The translations under genes and the position numbers were made by a program. A stretch of 11,341 nucleotides of DNA from Actinomycetota bacterium (GTDB lineage: Bacteria > Actinomycetota > Actinomycetes > Mycobacteriales > Micromonosporaceae): contig VAXX01000259.1 of NCBI GenBank assembly GCA_005885115.1, forward strand, positions 1 through 11,341, written 5' to 3'. The notes under the pieces were generated by a model. It saw nothing but the letters and a program-made list of their open reading frames with translations, was not told the origin of the DNA and did no database searches. Numbering within the stretch: position 1 is the stretch's first letter; every line of letters begins with the position of its first letter. Below, in pieces: positions 2,038 through 11,341 of the stretch.

Positions 2038-3606
2038 TCACTCCTCCGGAAGCAACGGCTCCTCGACCGGATCGATCCCGGCCGCGTCACCCAGGTTCCA
2101 TTCGCTGACAGCCCTCGGCGCCGGACCGGTGTTTCCTGAATTCGGGTTGGGGTTACCGGCCCCGGGTACCCGATACCCCTTGGGATCGCCCTTCCACTGC
2201 CATTTGAAGTACGGCCCCCGATGGACGACGTCTCGGGAAGTGCTTTCTGGATTGCCAACCTCCCAGAAGGCGCTGACTGACTTGTCGCTGGGATCGTACG
2301 CCCGCCAACCGCGGCCCCCGGTCGCCGCCGTCTCATTCATCTTTTCGACTGTGAGTCCGGAGTTTTTCGCCAGTTCCAGGAACTCGTCCTCGGTGGCGCC
2401 GCGCATCGACTGGGGGTTGTTGAGCCGCCGGGTCGGGCCGTCCCCGTTGATCAGCTCGGCCCCGTCATCGAGCGGGTCCGGATCGGTCAGCGGGTTCATC
2501 GCCTCGACCTGGGCCTTCAGGTCCGGAGGGCAGATGTCTCCTGGATTACCGCAGACGTCCGCCCAGACCTTGTACCGTGGGTCGTTCTGGTGGATGAGGA
2601 CGTGCGGGCTGAGCTTGACGATGGGATCGGGCGGAGCCGGGCTCCACGACCCTCCCGGATCCGCCTGGAAGCCGGACGGGTCGGGGTTCGCGTTCGGGGC
2701 GTCGGCGCCGCTGCACTGGCGTTCCTCCCCGTCCGGGCCTTCGCACGTCGCCTGCAGGCCGGTGGGGTCCGTCCGGACCTCCGGGTTGTCCCCCGCGTAC
2801 GTGTACCCGTTCAGCTGTCCCGGGTCCTTCTTCTCGAACACCGGGTCGACGCTGATGAACCTACCGAGCGCGGGGTCGTAAAATCTGGCGCCGATCGCGG
2901 TGAGGCCGGTCCCGGTGTCGGCCGGCTTGTTGAGGAAGGCGCGGTTGTCGGGCCACGTGCCGGCGGTACCACGCGGGTCGCCGTAGGGTGTGCTCTGCCG
3001 CCACGTCGGATTCTGCGTCGTGTTGTCCAGGTAGAACGCCGGCGTACCGTGCTGGTCGGTGACCTCGAAGCGGTACGCGGTCGTCGCCGTACCGGTCCGG
3101 ACCGCGACGGCTCCGCCGGGAAGCTGGTAGTACCGGGTGCCCGTCGTCGTACCCGCGGAGTTGCTGAGCACGATCTGCTCACCCGGCAGGTAGAGCGTCG
3201 TCGTCGCCGGGTCCTTCTGGACGAGCAGGTTTCCGTCCGCGCCGTAGGTGAAGGTGCTCGTACCGTTGGCGGTGCTGGCGATGGCGGTGAGCCGCCCGGC
3301 GTCGTCCCACGTGAGGGTCTGGCTGCCCTGGCCCGCGTTGCGCATCGTCGTGTTGCCGGTCGAGTCGTACGCGTAGCTGGTGGTCCCGCTCGCCCCGCCC
3401 GTCTTCGTCGTACCGGTGAGGCTGTGCGGCTGCCCGGCGCCGTTGCCGTTGTACGTGTACGTCGTGGTGGTGTCCGTGCCGCCGGTGGTGCTGTGCTGCA
3501 CCTGGTTGGCGCGCTGACCCAACGGGTCGAACGACCAACTGGTCCAGTACGCGCTCGCCGAGCCGAGGCTGTCACCGACCGTGGCATGATTGGCCGGGGT
3601 CGGCAC
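2038..3606 (-). CDS. RHS repeat-associated core and C-terminal toxin (3' part of frameshifted RHS gene)
   Basis: 522 codons from a GTG at 3606, but the homologous frame is open back past 3676, and no ribosome site precedes the GTG, so this is best read as the 3' part of the RHS gene rather than an independent gene. YD repeats (YDSTGNTTMRN, WDDAGRLTAIA, YGADGNLLVQ) cover residues 50-130. The RHS core follows at about 239-284 with ARFYDPALGRFISVDP, LNGYTYAGDNP and DPTGL. After that comes a 238-residue variable region: a proline/aspartate-rich linker (285-395), then a compact domain (about 398-485) with RGATEDEF, GGRGWRAYDP, FWEVGNPES and VVHRGPYFKW. This is the expected toxin position. The His/Arg-rich GPY motif recalls small RNase-type polymorphic toxins, but I cannot name the family. 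The toxin tip has lower third-codon GC than the core, as exchanged tips often do. In RHS proteins the core shell is known to enclose and cleave off the tip. Confidence 0.85.
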   Translation of the reverse strand: MPTPANHATVGDSLGSASAYWTSWSFDPLGQRANQVQHSTTGGTDTTTTYTYNGNGAGQPHSLTGTTKTGGASGTTSYAYDSTGNTTMRNAGQGSQTLTWDDAGRLTAIASTANGTSTFTYGADGNLLVQKDPATTTLYLPGEQIVLSNSAGTTTGTRYYQLPGGAVAVRTGTATTAYRFEVTDQHGTPAFYLDNTTQNPTWRQSTPYGDPRGTAGTWPDNRAFLNKPADTGTGLTAIGARFYDPALGRFISVDPVFEKKDPGQLNGYTYAGDNPEVRTDPTGLQATCEGPDGEERQCSGADAPNANPDPSGFQADPGGSWSPAPPDPIVKLSPHVLIHQNDPRYKVWADVCGNPGDICPPDLKAQVEAMNPLTDPDPLDDGAELINGDGPTRRLNNPQSMRGATEDEFLELAKNSGLTVEKMNETAATGGRGWRAYDPSDKSVSAFWEVGNPESTSRDVVHRGPYFKWQWKGDPKGYRVPGAGNPNPNSGNTGPAPRAVSEWNLGDAAGIDPVEEPLLPEE

Positions 3607-3658
3607 GGCGGCGCAGTTGTCGGTCGCGGTCCACGCGTGGGTGAGCCGGTCGACCTGG

Positions 3659-3676
3659 TCATACGTGAAGCACGTA
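3659..3676 (-). other. Frameshift junction in the RHS gene at a perfect 6-bp hairpin
   Basis: The N-terminal frame reads DDESYVLHV then TGA at 3659-3661, while the next frame gives TYDQVDRLTHAWT, the expected continuation of a YD repeat. Removing 7 nt (plus-strand GAAGCAC, 3667-3673) would restore ESYTYDQVDRLT and a protein of about 2042 aa; removing one G would give SYVLHYDQVD. The site is an exact inverted repeat on the plus strand, TACGTG-AAG-CACGTA (3662-3676). Either a real mutation or a sequencing error could explain it. Confidence 0.8.
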
Positions 3677-6600
3677 CGACTCGTCGTCGACTCTGGTCGG
3701 CGTGGTCAGGATCTGGTTGGTGGTCAGCTGTTCGGTGAGCCGGCCGGTATGCGCGTCGTACAGATTGGTGATGGTCGCCTCGTTGGGCGAGGCACCGATG
3801 GTCTCCTGACTGACCCGCCCCCAGGCGTCGTACGCGGTCTGCTGTGCGTACATGCCCGTGCCGTTGGGAAGGTCGTCACTCGTGTACGAGTGCAGCACGG
3901 TCTCGGACGGCAGGCCACCGGCGGCCGGGTAGATGTCCTTGAGCAGCAACCCGTTCGTGGCGGTGTAGACGTGGGAGAACGCGTACGAGATGCCCAGCGC
4001 AGTGCCTTCGGTGGCCGACGGGATGGTGACTGTCTCGCCGAGTGACTCACCGAAAACGTTGAAGGCCCTGTACTGTGTGGTGTATGCGGCGCCGCCCCAG
4101 TACGCGGTCTGCGTCGTCAGGTGCCCGACCGCATTGGTCACTCCCGCGACGGCGTTGCCGTTGTCGTAGACCCAGGACGTCATCTGGTTGGCGGAGCTCT
4201 GCCCACCGGTCGGGGCGGCGTACGTCGCGGTCTTGCGGTTGAGCGGGTCGTACGTCGTGGACGTGGTCCTCCCCCGGGAGTCCGTGCTCTGGACGAGGTT
4301 GCCGTTGCCGTCGTAGACCAGGGCCGAGGTACCCGCGTCCGGGTCTGCCTTGGCCGTCACCTCGCCGAGCAGGTTGTACGTCGAGGTCCACGTGCTGTTC
4401 TGGGCATCGGTGACGGTGTTCTGCTTGCCGTGACCGTCGTACCCGTACCGGGTGGCCGTTGTGGTGCCGCCGGACACCGACCAGGTCCCGGTGAAGGTGT
4501 TCGCCGGTGTGCTCACCGTCGGCGCGGTGGTGTACTCGTCCAGCTCCGTCATGCGGCCCAGCGGGTCGGTCAGGACCGCCCGGGTGACCCCGCCCGCGGG
4601 CGGGACGGTGGTGGTGCGGTCACCGTTGTACACCGTCGTCGTGGTGGATTTCGCCACACCGCTGTCTTCGCTCGTGTCGACGACCACGCGGCCGAGTCCG
4701 TCGTAGGTGTAGAAGTCCTGCATCGGGATGGCCCCGCTGGCCGCGACCAACGTGGTGCTCGGTAGGTTGTTGGCGTCGTACCAGTTGGTGTATTTCGCCC
4801 GGACCCAGCCGCGGCTGTCGTAGAACGTGTCCGTCACCAGCCGGCTGGTGGTGCTGACCGGGGTGGTCGCCTGGGTCTGCCGGACGCGCAACTGCCCGTC
4901 GTAGATGGTGATCGTGGACCGGTAGGCGGAGGCGTCGGTGAGCCGGTTGGTGGTCACCGAGGTCGTGCCCGTGTTGGACACCTGGTAGCTGTAGGTGTAG
5001 TTCGCCGCCACCGAGGTCGACCGGGAATTGAGCCAGACCGAGGTGACGCGACCCAGCGCGTCGTACTGGTGCGTCGTCACCACCGAGTTGGGATCGGTCG
5101 CGGTCAGCGTCGTGCCGCGCTGCGGGTCCACGGTCGTCGTCGTGGTCTGGTTGAGCGCGTTGGTGACCGCGGTCGCCGTGGTGAGGCCGACCGCGTTCAT
5201 GGTGTACGCCGTTCCGGTCCGGTTGCCGTCGCCGTCATAGCTCGCCGTCACGCGGCCGATGCCGTCGTACGTGCTGCGCGCCGTGGTCTGGTAGGTGAAC
5301 CCGCCACCGGACCAGTCCGACGCCTTGCGCACCATGGTGACATCGCCCTTGGACGGTGCCGAGGGCTGCGGGTAGGTGGTGGCGAAGGTGGGGTCGTCGT
5401 AGAAGGTACGGGCGTCGGTGACGACCTGTCCGGGCCGGTTGACCGTGGCCGGCGCGGTCAACCGGTTCGACCCGGCCGGTACGGACGCCGGGGTGCCCTC
5501 GGTGAACCCGCCGCACGCCACCGAGTCGGTCTCCACCTCCCCCGGCAGGCCCACCAGGTTCGCCGCCGGGTTCGCGGCCGCGTACGTGGTGGTCGTACAC
5601 CGGTCGTAGGCGGTGTCAGCCGGCACGGTGTGGCTGTACGTGTTCAGGACCAGCCCGAGGTTGACGTCGGTGACGGTGGCGTCGTACGTGGTGTCCGTCT
5701 CCGAGTAGCGCCACGTGATCGCACCGCCGTCGGTCAGCGCCTGCCGGCTGTACGTCTCGGCCGGCGCCACCCAGTTCGCCGTCAACGCCGGCAGGCCGTT
5801 CCGGTTGCGTGTGGCGGTCGGCCCCGACACCCAGTACGACGTGATCGTCGAGTGATCGACCGGACCACCGTTGCCCAGGTACGTCGTGGTCTCCAACGCC
5901 CTACCCGACAGCTGGTCGAGGTCCTCGTGCACGCCACCGGCCGAGTCGGTCAGGTTGGCCACCGTGCTGTTGTTGTCCCGCGACATCCCTTGGTAGTAAA
6001 CGGTTTCCGACTTGGCCTGCGGATCGTTGGCACCGTCGCCGGTCAGCGTGATGACATCCGAGTAGCCGCGGAACTGCCCGTACGTGCGGTACTTCGCCTG
6101 GACCACCTCGTTGTCGTCGTAGTGCCATGCCGCACCGTGGTCCCGGTACACGTAACTGGTCGCGGTCGCCGGCGCACCGCCGGTCGGATCCGTCGCGGTG
6201 ACCTTGCTGACGACGTACTTGTTGAACCAGTCGGTGAACGGAGCCGTGTATCCCGGCGGCGTCCAGGACACCGGATAGCACGACGACGTGTTCGCCGACG
6301 GCGTGATCGTCACCGGCGCGGTGCACGGGTTCACCAAGGTGTAGGTCGGGCTGATGACCGAGCCGGTCTCGGTGGCGATCGACGCGATCCGGTACCGGTA
6401 GAACGGCGGCAGCCCGTCGGTGACGCTGTCCACCCGGTTCTGCAGCTGCACCTTGCCGAAGGTCACCGCTGGCAGCGTGACCGGTGTGGTGGACCCGCCA
6501 CCCGTCGTGCCCGATCCGGTCCGGGTCACCGAGTCCAGCCACAGCGTCGGCGAGGTGCCGTCACCGGTCGCCGGGAAGCTCTGCGACAACGCGTACGAGT

Positions 6601-8173
6601 CGACCGTCAGGTACGACGACGAGGCCACCGAATACTGCTGCGCGCTGATCGAAGCCAGCCGTACCGTGGAGAAGAACGACGGCCCCTGGGCGCTGCAGGT
6701 GCTACCGGCCGCGCAGATCAGATCGAACGGTACGTCCGGCAACCCGTAGTCGACGTGGTCCAGGTGACTGTCCCGGACGTACGAGCTCATCTTCGCGCCC
6801 TTGTTCTGCGCGTAGTAGTTCGCGTCCTGGCGATAGTAGTACGCCATCGCATTGCCGTGGATGTCCTTGACATAGTCGAGGTTCCACCGGTAGGCCATCG
6901 TGCACACCGACGAGGTGAACCCGGCCGTGTTGTAGCACGGGTCACCCGGGTGCGCCGAATACACCGGCTCGGAGTCCACCGAGTTCGTCGTCGCCTTACC
7001 CGACACCCACCCCGGCAACTCGTTGCGCCCGAACTGGTACACCGTCCCCGACCGCTCGGTGACCGTCCAGTAGTCCGTGTTGTATGTCCCGGAACCGTTC
7101 CCCGAGTTCGTGACGTGGGTGACCACCTCACCGCTGTCACTCTGTGGCTTCCACATGGACCTGCCCGAGTCCCACACGAGCGAGGTCGAGGAGCCGTTCA
7201 ACGACAGCGTCAGAACCGGGCCGTTGTAGCACTGGTCCGAGGTCGCCACCGGCGAGGCACTGCCCTCCGGGCTGTCCGAACATGCCACGAAGGACTGCTC
7301 GACGTATGACGAGGGCGTCGACCACCCGTCACCCGCCCACGACGACTGGGCCTGCGTCGACGCGGTCTTCCCGTCCACGTCCGACGAGTCGTACACCATC
7401 GCCGTTCGGGGCATCAACGGGGACGCCGCGGGCGGTATCAGGATCGGGTAGGTGTAGTTGAAGCCGCCGGTGCTCCCCCCGGCGGTCCAGGAGCCCAGCG
7501 GCGAGAGGCTGGTCGCCGCGTAGGATCCGGCGGACCCGCCCTCCTGGCCGGGATCGCTGGTTGCCGCCAGTACCATCGGCGTCGCCGTCGTCATCGGCGA
7601 GGCGGAGGCGGCCCGTGGCGCCACGACGCCGGGATTGATCTGCGCGGAAACCGTCTTCGCTGTGGTGTCGTTGGACCCGAAGTTGCCCCCGAATGCCTGG
7701 GCGAACGCGGAGTAGTCGAGGCCCACGCGGACCGGGCCGGTGCCCGAGCCGATCGGCGTGACGGTGAACAGGACGCCCTTCACGCCGGCCGTGACGGCGG
7801 ACGCCTGGTCCAGGACGGCGACGTCCAGACCGGGCGGCCCGCTGTAGCGACCCCGCGCCTCGACGACGGGCCGGGCCCAGACCGGTGTGCCGGTCGCCTT
7901 CACCGGTGCCGCCGACGCGGCGGACAGATGGAGCGAGGCGATCCCGGCGCTTGGCAGCGTCGTGGCTTTCGGCGCGTAGGCGGAGGCGGGCTGGTTGGCC
8001 GCCTTGGTGAAGTGTGACGGTATCCGCTTCACAGCGCTCACCGCCGGGCCCGGGTCCGGCGCCGGTGGCGGCGTCGAGGGCCGCGCCAGTGCCGGTACAC
8101 CGCCGAGCAGAGCGCCGGCCAACAGACCGGCGACGAGCCCGGCAACGGCAACTGTTCCCTGTCGCGGATACAT
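3659..8173 (-). CDS. Secreted RHS/YD-repeat protein, N-terminal part (frameshifted)
   Basis: 1504-aa product as it stands; about 2042 aa if the frameshift at its 3' end is repaired. The frame is open to 8548, but ATG 8173 is chosen because it starts a clear Sec signal peptide (Arg4, hydrophobic AVAGLVAGLLAGALLGG, AxA cleavage after residue 30) behind a GAGCGAGGG ribosome site. Then follow a proline-rich linker (31-45) and an N-terminal region containing TYPILIPPAASPLMPRTAMV and SSWAGDGWS (about 241-284), the entry motif of actinobacterial secreted RHS proteins. A beta-rich shell region comes next. YD repeats fill roughly residues 965-1490 (for example YDGIGRVTASYDGDGNR, YDALGRVTSV, YDGLGRVVVD, YDGNGNLVQS, YDAWGRVSQE). 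It would form the RHS cocoon around the C-terminal toxin. Its first 58 codons and ribosome site are duplicated inside the divergent gene. If the frameshift is real, this product lacks the core and toxin. Confidence 0.9.
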   Translation of the reverse strand: MYPRQGTVAVAGLVAGLLAGALLGGVPALARPSTPPPAPDPGPAVSAVKRIPSHFTKAANQPASAYAPKATTLPSAGIASLHLSAASAAPVKATGTPVWARPVVEARGRYSGPPGLDVAVLDQASAVTAGVKGVLFTVTPIGSGTGPVRVGLDYSAFAQAFGGNFGSNDTTAKTVSAQINPGVVAPRAASASPMTTATPMVLAATSDPGQEGGSAGSYAATSLSPLGSWTAGGSTGGFNYTYPILIPPAASPLMPRTAMVYDSSDVDGKTASTQAQSSWAGDGWSTPSSYVEQSFVACSDSPEGSASPVATSDQCYNGPVLTLSLNGSSTSLVWDSGRSMWKPQSDSGEVVTHVTNSGNGSGTYNTDYWTVTERSGTVYQFGRNELPGWVSGKATTNSVDSEPVYSAHPGDPCYNTAGFTSSVCTMAYRWNLDYVKDIHGNAMAYYYRQDANYYAQNKGAKMSSYVRDSHLDHVDYGLPDVPFDLICAAGSTCSAQGPSFFSTVRLASISAQQYSVASSSYLTVDSYALSQSFPATGDGTSPTLWLDSVTRTGSGTTGGGSTTPVTLPAVTFGKVQLQNRVDSVTDGLPPFYRYRIASIATETGSVISPTYTLVNPCTAPVTITPSANTSSCYPVSWTPPGYTAPFTDWFNKYVVSKVTATDPTGGAPATATSYVYRDHGAAWHYDDNEVVQAKYRTYGQFRGYSDVITLTGDGANDPQAKSETVYYQGMSRDNNSTVANLTDSAGGVHEDLDQLSGRALETTTYLGNGGPVDHSTITSYWVSGPTATRNRNGLPALTANWVAPAETYSRQALTDGGAITWRYSETDTTYDATVTDVNLGLVLNTYSHTVPADTAYDRCTTTTYAAANPAANLVGLPGEVETDSVACGGFTEGTPASVPAGSNRLTAPATVNRPGQVVTDARTFYDDPTFATTYPQPSAPSKGDVTMVRKASDWSGGGFTYQTTARSTYDGIGRVTASYDGDGNRTGTAYTMNAVGLTTATAVTNALNQTTTTTVDPQRGTTLTATDPNSVVTTHQYDALGRVTSVWLNSRSTSVAANYTYSYQVSNTGTTSVTTNRLTDASAYRSTITIYDGQLRVRQTQATTPVSTTSRLVTDTFYDSRGWVRAKYTNWYDANNLPSTTLVAASGAIPMQDFYTYDGLGRVVVDTSEDSGVAKSTTTTVYNGDRTTTVPPAGGVTRAVLTDPLGRMTELDEYTTAPTVSTPANTFTGTWSVSGGTTTATRYGYDGHGKQNTVTDAQNSTWTSTYNLLGEVTAKADPDAGTSALVYDGNGNLVQSTDSRGRTTSTTYDPLNRKTATYAAPTGGQSSANQMTSWVYDNGNAVAGVTNAVGHLTTQTAYWGGAAYTTQYRAFNVFGESLGETVTIPSATEGTALGISYAFSHVYTATNGLLLKDIYPAAGGLPSETVLHSYTSDDLPNGTGMYAQQTAYDAWGRVSQETIGASPNEATITNLYDAHTGRLTEQLTTNQILTTPTRVDDESYVLHV

Positions 8174-8194
8174 CGCACCCTCGCTCCGTCGCAC
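7999..8194. repeat. 196-bp direct repeat, copy 1 (start region of the RHS gene)
   Basis: Matches 9513-9708 base for base at a constant offset of 1514, with one difference (T at 8028, C at 9542) and no gaps. On the minus strand it spans the 21 nt before the RHS start (ribosome site), the ATG and codons 1-58, including the full signal peptide and linker. The single difference changes codon 49 from AAG (Lys) to AGG (Arg). This copy fits its gene and is likely the donor or original. Confidence 0.95.
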
Positions 8195-8629
8195 AGACAC
8201 ACCCCGATACGGCGGCAGCCCGGTAGGCGCTCCCCGTGGCCGAAACTCTGTCACGAACCCTGGCCGCTGTGTGGGGCACGAGGTCATTTCGGATGATCCC
8301 GGCGGGCCGGAGAAACGGGTCAGCGGGCATCGATACGGACACCATCGGGGTGGTCCCGGCGCGGTCGCCGAGAATCTGGCCGAGGTGGGCGAACACGGTG
8401 GTACGCGTTCCCCGTCGGGTGCACCCCTCGCACGGTTCGAACGATCTTCGCGGCCCCGCTGCGAGATCTCGGACCGATAACGATTGGTGCGTGAAAACCA
8501 GCAGGATTCGCCCAAAGATCGATCGATGCGGTCGAGTCGACCGGGCACCTGCCCCCCACGATTCCGGGTCGGCTGTTTTCCTGTGACCGACCTAACCGGT
8601 ACCGGTTACTCACCTGAAAGCGGGGGAAG
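8174..8629. promoter_or_regulatory. 456-bp intergenic region between divergent large secreted-protein genes
   Basis: Separates the RHS gene (start 8173, minus) from the DNRLRE/FG-GAP gene (start 8630, plus), so it must carry both promoters. I cannot fix -35/-10 boxes with confidence. Visible structures are a 16-bp perfect palindrome (8593-8608) near the plus-strand start and two shorter 10-bp palindromes, CGAGATCTCG (8462-8471) and ATCGATCGAT (8518-8527). The minus-strand frame is open through much of the region but its translation is arginine-rich and lacks a ribosome site, so it is not treated as coding. Confidence 0.6.
8593..8608. promoter_or_regulatory. 16-bp perfect palindrome, candidate operator
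   Basis: TAACCGGTACCGGTTA is its own reverse complement, centred 8600/8601, and ends 21 nt before the ATG at 8630. It lies in the leader or promoter of the plus-strand gene and could bind a dimeric regulator or form a hairpin next to the ribosome site. No regulator gene is in the window. Confidence 0.4.
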
Positions 8630-11341
8630 ATGCGTACATTCGTACGCCGTCTACGTGATGCCTGTGTGGCGGTCACCGCTGTGACGACCGTGGTCGTCAC
8701 GAGCGCTACCGGCGCCTGGTCCGCGGCACCGGCACATACACCAACCGCCCCGACGACACCCACCACGAACACCCCAGTGCTGACCGCGACGCAGGCCCAG
8801 GCCCAGGCGAGGGCGACCGGAAAGGCGGTACCGGTCGACGGGGCCACCACCGCGACCGACACCCTGGTCGCCAACCCGAACGGTACGTTCACCCGCACCC
8901 GGTCGGCGGTAGCCGTGCGCAAGCGGGTCGGCTCGTCCTGGGCCGGGTTGGACGCGACATTGCGGCGCAACGCCGACGGCAGCATCTCCCCCACCGTCAC
9001 GACCGCTGGTCTGACCCTGTCCGGCGGCGGAGGAGGCCCGCTCGCGACCATGACCAGCGGCGGTCGCTCGCTCGCGCTGTCGTTGCCGATGACCCTGCCC
9101 GCACCGACCCTGTCCGGTCCGACCGCCACGTACCCGTCGGTGCTGCCCGCCGTGGACCTTCAGGTGAACGCGGACGTGCAGGGCGGCTTCAGCGAGGTCC
9201 TCGTCATACACACGGCGGCCGCCGCCGCGAACCCGGCGCTGACCACGCTGACGCTTGCCGCCAAGGCGGACGGAGTGACCCTGTCGGCCGACGCGACGGG
9301 GAACATCACGGCGAACGACCGCTTCGGTCGGGCGGTGTTCACGGCAGTGGCGCCGACGATGTGGGACTCGGCGAAAGCGGCCCCGTCGGTGACCGCGACC
9401 GACGTCGACGGTACGGTGCTCGACGCGCACACCAGCCGACCGGTCGCCTCCGGCCCGGTCGGTCCCGGGGAGGCGGCACACGTGGCGGGTGTCGCCGCCA
9501 CCGCCACGTCGACCGCCTTGGTGAAGTGTGACGGTATCCGCCTCACAGCGCTCACCGCCGGGCCCGGGTCCGGCGCCGGTGGCGGCGTCGAGGGCCGCGC
9601 CAGTGCCGGTACACCGCCGAGCAGAGCGCCGGCCAACAGACCGGCGACGAGCCCGGCAACGGCAACTGTTCCCTGTCGCGGATACATCGCACCCTCGCTC
9701 CGTCGCACGGCACAGCTGAACCTGACCAACGTGTACTCGTACTCCTGCTCGGCCCGTACCGTCGAGGTGTATGCGCCCGGTACCACGCTCTCGTCGGGCA
9801 ACGCGACCTGGAACTCGTGGTCCGGGGTGAACCTGGGCGCCCGGGTCGACGCGGTGTCCGCCGCGCACGGATACAACTCCTCGTGCCCGGCGGCCGGCAT
9901 CGGGTTCAACGTGACCTCGGCGATCTCAGCGGACGTGTCGTCGGGCAAGTCGACGCAGACGTTCCTGTTCCAGGCCTCGAACGAGTCCACCGACGTGTAC
10001 GGGTGGAAGGAGTTCGCGTCCCCGAACCAGTCGGGTAAGCCGACCCTGTCCATCACGTACAACCACCCGCCGAACCAGCCCACCGGACTCACCACCTCAC
10101 CGGCGACGTCCTGCAACGCCAACCCGCCCAGCACGGTCGGCGACGGCACGGTCTCGCTGTACGCACCGGTGTCCGACCGGGACGGCGGCAACCTCGGTGT
10201 GGGCTTCCAGCTCACCCAGACCGCCACGGGTACGGTGGTCGCCTCCTCCGACCCCAACACGCTGACCTACCCGTCGGGACAGACCGCCGTACTCGTCGTA
10301 CCGGAATCCACCCTCAAAACCGTGGCGGGTACCACCATCACCCAGTTCAGCTGGAAGGTACAGGTCACCGACTTCATCGCCGGGCCGGTCTGGTCGACCA
10401 CCTGTACGTTCAACTTCGACCCGACCCGCACCGGGCAGCCGAACGTCGCCAAGCCGGCCACGACGATCACCATGCACCAGCCGGCGACGTTCACGGTCAC
10501 CAAGCCGGTCACCGGCACGGTACCGGTCAACTACATGTACCAGCTCAACGGTGAGGCCGAGGCGACCGTACCCGCCGACGCGGGCGGCAACGCCACCATC
10601 ACGCTCACGCCCGACCGGTTCACCAACGTCCTGACCGTCACCAGCCTCTCGCCGGGCGGCAACATCGGCGACACCGCACAGCTGGTCTTCAACGCCACCC
10701 CGGGTGCCACGGTGCAGGCGGACCAGGACCTGACCGGGGACAACGTGCCGGACCTGCTGTCGGTCGGCGCCGTGTACGGACTGCCGTCCGGGCTGTGGCT
10801 GGCCCGGGGTCAACCCAACACCGGGCAGGTCATCGCGGCGGCCGCGAACATCGGCGCCAACGGAAACAACATCGGTGTCCCGGGACAGCCTCCCGACAAC
10901 AGCCCGCGCGACTTCGACACCTCGCAGGTCATCTCCGGGCGCTTCACCGGTACCACGCTGCAGGACGTGCTGGTTTACTACCCGGGCGGTGCCAACGCCG
11001 GCGGTGGGGTGATCCTCAACGGCAACGGCGACGGTTCGGTGCTGCAGGCGCAGTACAACAACAACGCCGACCCGATCAGCTCCGGAGTCTTCACCGACGG
11101 TCTGGGCAACAACCCGCTCCAGATCGTCAACGCCGGCAACGGTTCCGGCCAGAACCTCGGGTACCCCGATCTGATCGGGCTCGCCGGCAGCTCCGCGACC
11201 GGGTACTACCTGAACTACTTCCCCAACGGAGACCAGGTCGGCGGGTACGGTGCGGTCGACTCACTCACCACCCTGACCCCCGACCAGGACATGAACTGGA
11301 ACAACTGGACCATCGTCGCCTGCCAGGTGGCCGGCTCGACC
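8630..11341 (+). CDS. Large secreted DNRLRE/FG-GAP-like protein, chimeric, runs off the window end
   Basis: 904 codons with no stop before the edge, so partial at the 3' end. Start ATG 8630 follows a purine-rich GGGGGAAG that is unusually close; MRTFVRRLRDACVAVTAV then WSAAPA gives a plausible Sec signal peptide. Order of parts: a Thr/Pro-rich linker (to about 60); a beta region with the AVRKRVGSSWAGLDATLRR and TYPSVLPAVDLQVNADVQGG motifs (about 95-250), typical of actinobacterial secreted proteins found near RHS genes; foreign segment 295-360 (see the repeat); then AQLNLTNVYSYSCSA to LSITYNHPPNQP (361-485), the C-terminal half of a DNRLRE-type beta domain. Fn3/Ig-like segments follow, and from about 698 FG-GAP-like repeats (ADQDLTGDNVPDLLSVG). 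Such proteins are surface or wall associated and often accompany RHS toxins. Residues 295-360 read the antisense of the RHS signal region and do not fit the fold, so the protein may be damaged. Confidence 0.8.
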   Translation, partial: MRTFVRRLRDACVAVTAVTTVVVTSATGAWSAAPAHTPTAPTTPTTNTPVLTATQAQAQARATGKAVPVDGATTATDTLVANPNGTFTRTRSAVAVRKRVGSSWAGLDATLRRNADGSISPTVTTAGLTLSGGGGGPLATMTSGGRSLALSLPMTLPAPTLSGPTATYPSVLPAVDLQVNADVQGGFSEVLVIHTAAAAANPALTTLTLAAKADGVTLSADATGNITANDRFGRAVFTAVAPTMWDSAKAAPSVTATDVDGTVLDAHTSRPVASGPVGPGEAAHVAGVAATATSTALVKCDGIRLTALTAGPGSGAGGGVEGRASAGTPPSRAPANRPATSPATATVPCRGYIAPSLRRTAQLNLTNVYSYSCSARTVEVYAPGTTLSSGNATWNSWSGVNLGARVDAVSAAHGYNSSCPAAGIGFNVTSAISADVSSGKSTQTFLFQASNESTDVYGWKEFASPNQSGKPTLSITYNHPPNQPTGLTTSPATSCNANPPSTVGDGTVSLYAPVSDRDGGNLGVGFQLTQTATGTVVASSDPNTLTYPSGQTAVLVVPESTLKTVAGTTITQFSWKVQVTDFIAGPVWSTTCTFNFDPTRTGQPNVAKPATTITMHQPATFTVTKPVTGTVPVNYMYQLNGEAEATVPADAGGNATITLTPDRFTNVLTVTSLSPGGNIGDTAQLVFNATPGATVQADQDLTGDNVPDLLSVGAVYGLPSGLWLARGQPNTGQVIAAAANIGANGNNIGVPGQPPDNSPRDFDTSQVISGRFTGTTLQDVLVYYPGGANAGGGVILNGNGDGSVLQAQYNNNADPISSGVFTDGLGNNPLQIVNAGNGSGQNLGYPDLIGLAGSSATGYYLNYFPNGDQVGGYGAVDSLTTLTPDQDMNWNNWTIVACQVAGST
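9513..9708. repeat. 196-bp direct repeat, copy 2 (inserted in the plus-strand gene)
   Basis: Second copy of 7999-8194, with a C at 9542 instead of T. Homology ends sharply: beyond the shared CC at the left and GCAC at the right, the flanks differ. No terminal inverted repeats and no clear target-site duplication are visible, so it does not look like a mobile element. In the plus-strand gene it stays open as codons about 295-360. Because 196 is not a multiple of three, the flanks stay in frame only if bases were also lost or replaced. On the minus strand it carries an intact ribosome site, ATG (9687) and signal peptide. Confidence 0.95.

Follow-up and report, generated by a model that had tools for sequence, protein, structure and literature searches.

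A 196-bp gene-start repeat inside a DNRLRE-type gene of a draft actinobacterial genome is most likely an assembly artefact

Results

Genes of the window

The window, that is, the whole stretch of 11,341 nucleotides that was analyzed, constitutes one entire contig (designated C210) of the source draft (3,469,911 bases in 607 contigs) and contains no N. Its minus strand carries an RHS gene, whose first part (3659–8173) was recognized by an RHS_repeat match and by 51–68% identity to four relatives, and whose continuation in another frame (2038–3660) was located by comparison with relatives. The frame is broken near 3655 (within 3600–3720, minus strand), where the RHS genes of C184 (a contig of the same genome carrying a paralogous locus) and of genome G023 have 29 residues between the matched parts vs about 4 in the window. 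Behind the RHS gene, two further minus-strand open reading frames (ORFs; 353–1303 and 1634–2041) gave no Pfam match at E 0.001; judging from their position, we would guess that they could be immunity genes. On the plus strand, an ORF that is still open at the contig end (8630–11341) encodes a DNRLRE-type protein, as identified from the ORF list, its relatives, and an NCBIfam profile, in which the front of the DNRLRE domain is missing. An RHS gene lies beside a divergent DNRLRE-type gene, as in the window, at four of five related loci compared together with their flanks (C184, G023, G033, and G007), and no RHS relative was found within the 8 kb of the fifth (G003). The two divergent genes may work together.

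A 196-bp direct repeat at the RHS start and within the DNRLRE-type gene

Alignment within the window re-found the direct repeat reported in an earlier note on this DNA: positions 7999–8194 (copy 1) and 9513–9708 (copy 2) are identical at 195 of 196 bases without a gap at an offset of 1514, the sole mismatch being 8028/9542, and identity drops at once to background outside both sharp edges. The pair formed the longest repeat family in a repeat search of the window and was far above chance in self-BLAST (E 8.9e-98). As the note had also stated and as was seen in the ORFs, the unit comprises, on the minus strand, the RHS start codon (8173–8171), 21 bases upstream (including, by our own reading, a ribosome-site-like stretch), and the leader plus linker, and its second copy lies antisense within the oppositely transcribed gene. 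Judged from sequence comparison, the native copy is clearly copy 1, which sits at the RHS start; the paralogous RHS gene on C184 has its leader, 65% identical, at the matching place. Copy 2, also on the minus strand, occupies the place where relatives of the host ORF have about 86 codons of the DNRLRE domain, as indicated by the repeat alignment, the relatives, and the DNRLRE profile. The plus-strand ORF nevertheless remains open across it. Of the three plus-strand frames of the unit, a single one is stop-free, and the ORF runs through exactly this frame and is in register again behind copy 2; we estimate the chance that a randomly misplaced copy keeps the frame at about 1 in 9.

Within the paralogous RHS leader of C184 (locus L036, 2066–2344), a tandem duplication with a period of 132 bp, identical at 145 of 147 aligned bases, is joined at a short shared sequence. 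It may be real or another artefact.

Conserved sequence replaced by copy 2

A protein search, in which 7992 candidates were scored, returned 202 relatives of the plus-strand protein, which belongs to an actinobacterial family with named members in Micromonospora, Dactylosporangium, Streptomyces, and others; many of them contain LamG or FG-GAP-like domains. None of the best 120 of the 202 relatives exceeded 56% identity, and a second assembly of the source species was therefore not found among these 120. The gene was matched in 33 of the 61 genomes searched, but the same-genus genome (G001) had no relative of it. Plasmid records gave 15 matches, all 60–80% identical, to that part of the DNRLRE gene which precedes copy 2, and a scan of a species-genome collection gave one distant locus.

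Eleven relatives picked from the search matches, including the paralog on C184, were aligned with the window. All 11 retain a related stretch at the position of copy 2, which is absent from the window, and both flanks are conserved. The span between the matched residues, whose ends vary by locus and hence give different figures for the window, was 258 bp in the C184 paralog vs 186 bp in the window (residues 297–358), 276 vs 183 bp for G023, 291 vs 204 bp for G007, and 258 vs 213 bp for G033. Moreover, the match of the window protein to the NCBIfam DNRLRE profile began no earlier than position 50 of 164, at residue 360 and thus immediately after copy 2, whereas in the nearest relative (P0001) it began already at position 3. 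Because the relatives keep this stretch and the profile starts only behind copy 2, the event at copy 2 is, by these comparisons, not a plain insertion: the front of the DNRLRE domain, some 86 codons or about 260 bp, has been lost, and 196 bp have been filled in. The conserved coding sequence is thus disrupted in the window while the relatives are intact, which speaks against a biological origin of copy 2 as far as such distant relatives can show. The RHS break near 3655 is a second local defect of the window contig.

Occurrence of the 196-bp unit in genomes

The own genome has only two near-identical copies of the unit, both in the window; after these came the C184 leader, which covers most of the unit at 65%, and a pair of hits about 44 bases long. 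Some match was obtained in 49 of the 61 genomes (own genome included), mostly short, the longest elsewhere spanning about 107 bases with 74% identity (G004), and no near-identical copy was found in the 60 other genomes, for each of which 13 candidates were scored.

These results bear on several of the origins that may be considered for copy 2. Insertion of a small mobile or repetitive element in the gene is scarcely credible: two near-identical copies in one contig would fit, but they are the only ones in the genome and are not found in the 60 others, the unit coincides with leader coding sequence, and the target sequence was lost and not duplicated. Gene conversion with the RHS leader as donor, or an exchange that drew on a paralogous RHS locus, would explain the 99.5% identity to the neighboring leader and the one differing residue (Lys/Arg), and both were among the four causes listed in the earlier note; they are nonetheless very unlikely. 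Conversion is opposed by the two sites, which show no homology beyond the 196-bp unit, and by the replaced stretch, which in relatives is unrelated to the leader, and exchange does not agree with the only paralogous leader found, that of C184, which is 65% identical as compared with 99% for the neighboring one. Misassembly, also on that list, emerged as the best supported of the four.

Similar patches in other contigs of the draft

One hundred further contigs of the source draft were sampled, of which 80 were readable and 20 were wholly N and each shorter than 3 kb. Inner N runs (19 runs of 2 to 318 bases) occurred in 16 of the 80 readable contigs, and these, together with the 607 contigs and a completeness of 77.74%, confirm that the window comes from a fragmented, scaffolded source. 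The short inner runs look like scaffold gaps; not every longer run need be one.

When each sampled contig was compared with itself for repeats, patches like that of the window were found in two of the 80 readable contigs (C460 and C483), with the other copy 1.3–1.6 kb away. In C460 (L086; 4834–4926 and 6399–6491), a 93-bp piece of a PAAR gene is also present, with 92 of 93 bases identical, 1565 bp upstream inside a VgrG/phage-hub-like gene, where the same-genus ortholog (G001) has 189 bp of other sequence; the right join of the patch resembles that ortholog. A VgrG-related model matched the patched gene below its cut-off, the match starting no earlier than position 94 of the profile and residue 48 of the protein. 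Relative to the G001 ortholog, the gene also lacks 38 bp near 5926, 1 kb beyond the patch, and its frame is broken there. Separately, the VgrG-like gene of G001 lacks 22 bp relative to C460 (L182, near 1512), which breaks its frame, and the G001 draft or this gene may be faulty too.

In C483 (L107; 208–310 and 1548–1650), two copies of a 103-bp recG fragment, alike at 101 of 103 bases, lie 1340 bp from each other, and 9–10 bases at one of the joins are common to both sides. This contig holds two recG wedge regions, of which the one at one contig end is 85% identical to G001 (residues 2–98 of 99) and the one at the gene start is 54% identical (residues 1–89 of 90), while the two are 53–57% identical to each other. 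C483 therefore joins recG segments of different ancestry. In C320 (L072), 2402–2562 and 2665–2825 form a 161-bp inverted repeat at 99% identity, the first arm ending exactly at a run of nine N.

In control genomes, no direct dispersed repeat of at least 90 bp at 97% identity or more was found in 594 kb (G023, 120 kb; G033, 320 kb; G001, 89 kb; G006, 24 kb; and G026, 41 kb; masked bases counted); two patched contigs vs none is a small count and weak by itself, and these limits were chosen after the hits had been seen. Below the limits, the source draft (G000) showed tandem arrays and weaker repeats in C330, C450, C530, C540, and C505. Among the controls, G033 had four direct repeats of 31–42 bp and one tandem repeat of 86 bp, and G001 had one 82-bp repeat at 90% with copies 10 kb apart; at locus L037 of G023, a direct repeat of 104 bp with 86% identity was seen.

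The three patches differ from their donors at four bases in total, all of them at codon position 1 or 2, and the residue is changed each time. Since natural alleles differ mostly at third codon positions, such differences are as random errors might give and as natural alleles seldom do; by our estimate, random error would avoid third positions four times out of four in about 1 of 5 cases. Alternative strain alleles had been considered as the source of the patches, and this idea was dropped because all four differences change the residue. As for the reading frame, the C460 patch is locally in frame (about 1 in 3 by chance) and the C483 patch is out of frame.

Excess of frame breaks in the draft

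The draft was further compared with the controls by a frame-break scan, in which a codon-usage model detects a change of reading frame without a stop. At the first setting, 435,649 bases of the sampled draft yielded 13 frame breaks free of N and another 111,327 bases yielded 5 (18 in 547 kb), as against 0 in 120,000 bases of G023, 1 in 320,000 of G033, 1 in 83,327 of G001, and 0 in 60,096 of G006 plus G026 (2 in 583 kb); the breaks were thus about 10 times commoner in the source draft, and some of them may reflect true pseudogenes or simple sequencing errors. Sequences consisting of N by more than half had been dropped from the scan (20 of the 100 sampled contigs, 3 of 8 pieces of G001, and 2 of 10 pieces of G006 plus G026). 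Over four settings, the totals were 18, 18, 26, and 16 for the source draft, 1, 1, 2, and 1 for G033 and likewise for G001, and 0 throughout for G023 and for G006 plus G026. In the window and C184, no break was flagged at any of the four settings despite the known RHS break near 3655; the scan therefore misses some breaks. An earlier scan, with the window and C184 included in training, had given 20 in 567 kb for the source draft, 1 in 440 kb for G023 plus G033, and 0 in 80 kb for G001, and had listed the known breaks in C460 and C483.

Discussion

The conserved stretch missing at copy 2 and the similar faults elsewhere in the draft, which exceed those of the controls (C460, C483, and C320, besides the frame breaks), point most likely to an assembly error. 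Copy 2 is very probably an artefact of draft making, either a local misassembly or an amplification chimera, and not a biological switch; as far as sequence comparison can tell, it is most likely a misplaced assembly fragment. The observations behind this interpretation are the repeat, the replacement as seen against relatives, the fragmented draft, the like patches, the two-ancestry contig, and the many frame breaks, to which the broken RHS gene and the C320 inverted repeat ending at an N run add support. On the other side stand the plus-strand frame kept open by the patch, a Ku gene that makes break repair possible, and a window contig without N.

Presumably, scaffolding, gap filling, or amplification of a fragmented and probably low-coverage genome provided the setting, whichever of these steps was the one at fault. 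A small piece of the RHS leader, which carried errors and whose real place would be 7999–8194, may have been set, with its orientation unchanged, into a gap of the neighboring DNRLRE gene some 1.5 kb off. Both joins would have been closed without N and, we infer, without read support, and the conserved stretch that belonged at the gap would have been lost.

Faults of this general kind are known from other drafts. Local assembly errors inside contigs and duplicate sequence made by scaffolding are described for metagenome-assembled genomes and such drafts in the pertinent sections of PMC7111523, which also warn that wrong protein-coding sequences spread through public databases when curation is skipped. 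On the reading favored here, the present case would resemble these in its faults inside contigs, its duplicate at a scaffold join, and the wrong protein-coding genes it brings into a public draft. It differs in that the errors there were found by missing read support and here by comparison, and patches of 100–200 bp from 1.5 kb away are not among the cases described in those sections. According to the part of the metaMIC report concerned with the CAMI benchmark (PMC9661791), about 65% of misassembly breakpoints in metagenome contigs lie within coding sequence; flanks derived from different genomes or places are a feature shared with the joins seen here, although our evidence is comparative and does not come from reads.

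The main biological alternative is a real recent rearrangement, in which a double-strand break in the DNRLRE gene led to the loss of about 260 bp and a templated fill from the RHS leader 1.5 kb away, by end joining or by template switching at a short shared sequence. Templated insertions do occur at repaired double-strand breaks, and the deletion of target sequence with a nearby templated fill seen at copy 2 is like them, although this combination fits biology and artefact alike. The sharp edges, the frame kept in C210 and C460, and the 9–10 shared bases at one C483 join would also be in keeping with such repair. A profile search gave a Ku family match above the cut-off on C368 of the source draft, so that end joining is possible; Streptomyces is among the bacteria with known end joining through Ku and LigD (PMC5124664). 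We nevertheless regard break repair as unlikely. It would take several such events within a draft of 3.5 Mb, with conserved genes, recG among them, being broken, and the same draft contains the two-ancestry contig, the inverted duplicate that stops at an N run, and the roughly 10-fold excess of frame breaks, faults that point to assembly. A biological process that copied the RHS start into the adjacent gene, as put forward in the earlier note, found no backing, given the 60 other genomes without a near-identical copy and the same type of fault elsewhere in the draft.

The note had further proposed that both genes would be turned off if the 1514 bp separating the direct repeats were lost. Direct repeats of about 196 bp can recombine in principle, and to that extent the arrangement would permit such a switch. 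This is, however, highly improbable, since it presupposes a real copy 2, the DNRLRE gene already lacks conserved sequence, and the second copy is present in none of the relatives examined; the proposal has no support of its own.

It is also quite unlikely, though not to the same degree, that the genome truly carries several segments of 90–200 bp replaced by same-orientation copies from 1.3–1.6 kb away, two of the three in frame, as the outcome of a templated rewriting of conserved domains from neighboring genes. If it were true, the replacement would be real and would represent an unusual local rewriting of genes. With an assembly artefact as the favored explanation of copy 2, gene-within-gene repeats in fragmented drafts call for a check of whether conserved sequence has been replaced relative to relatives and of whether like faults occur in the same assembly. 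Long same-orientation duplicates 1–2 kb apart, one of which replaces conserved sequence, may serve as a cheap marker of assembly errors.
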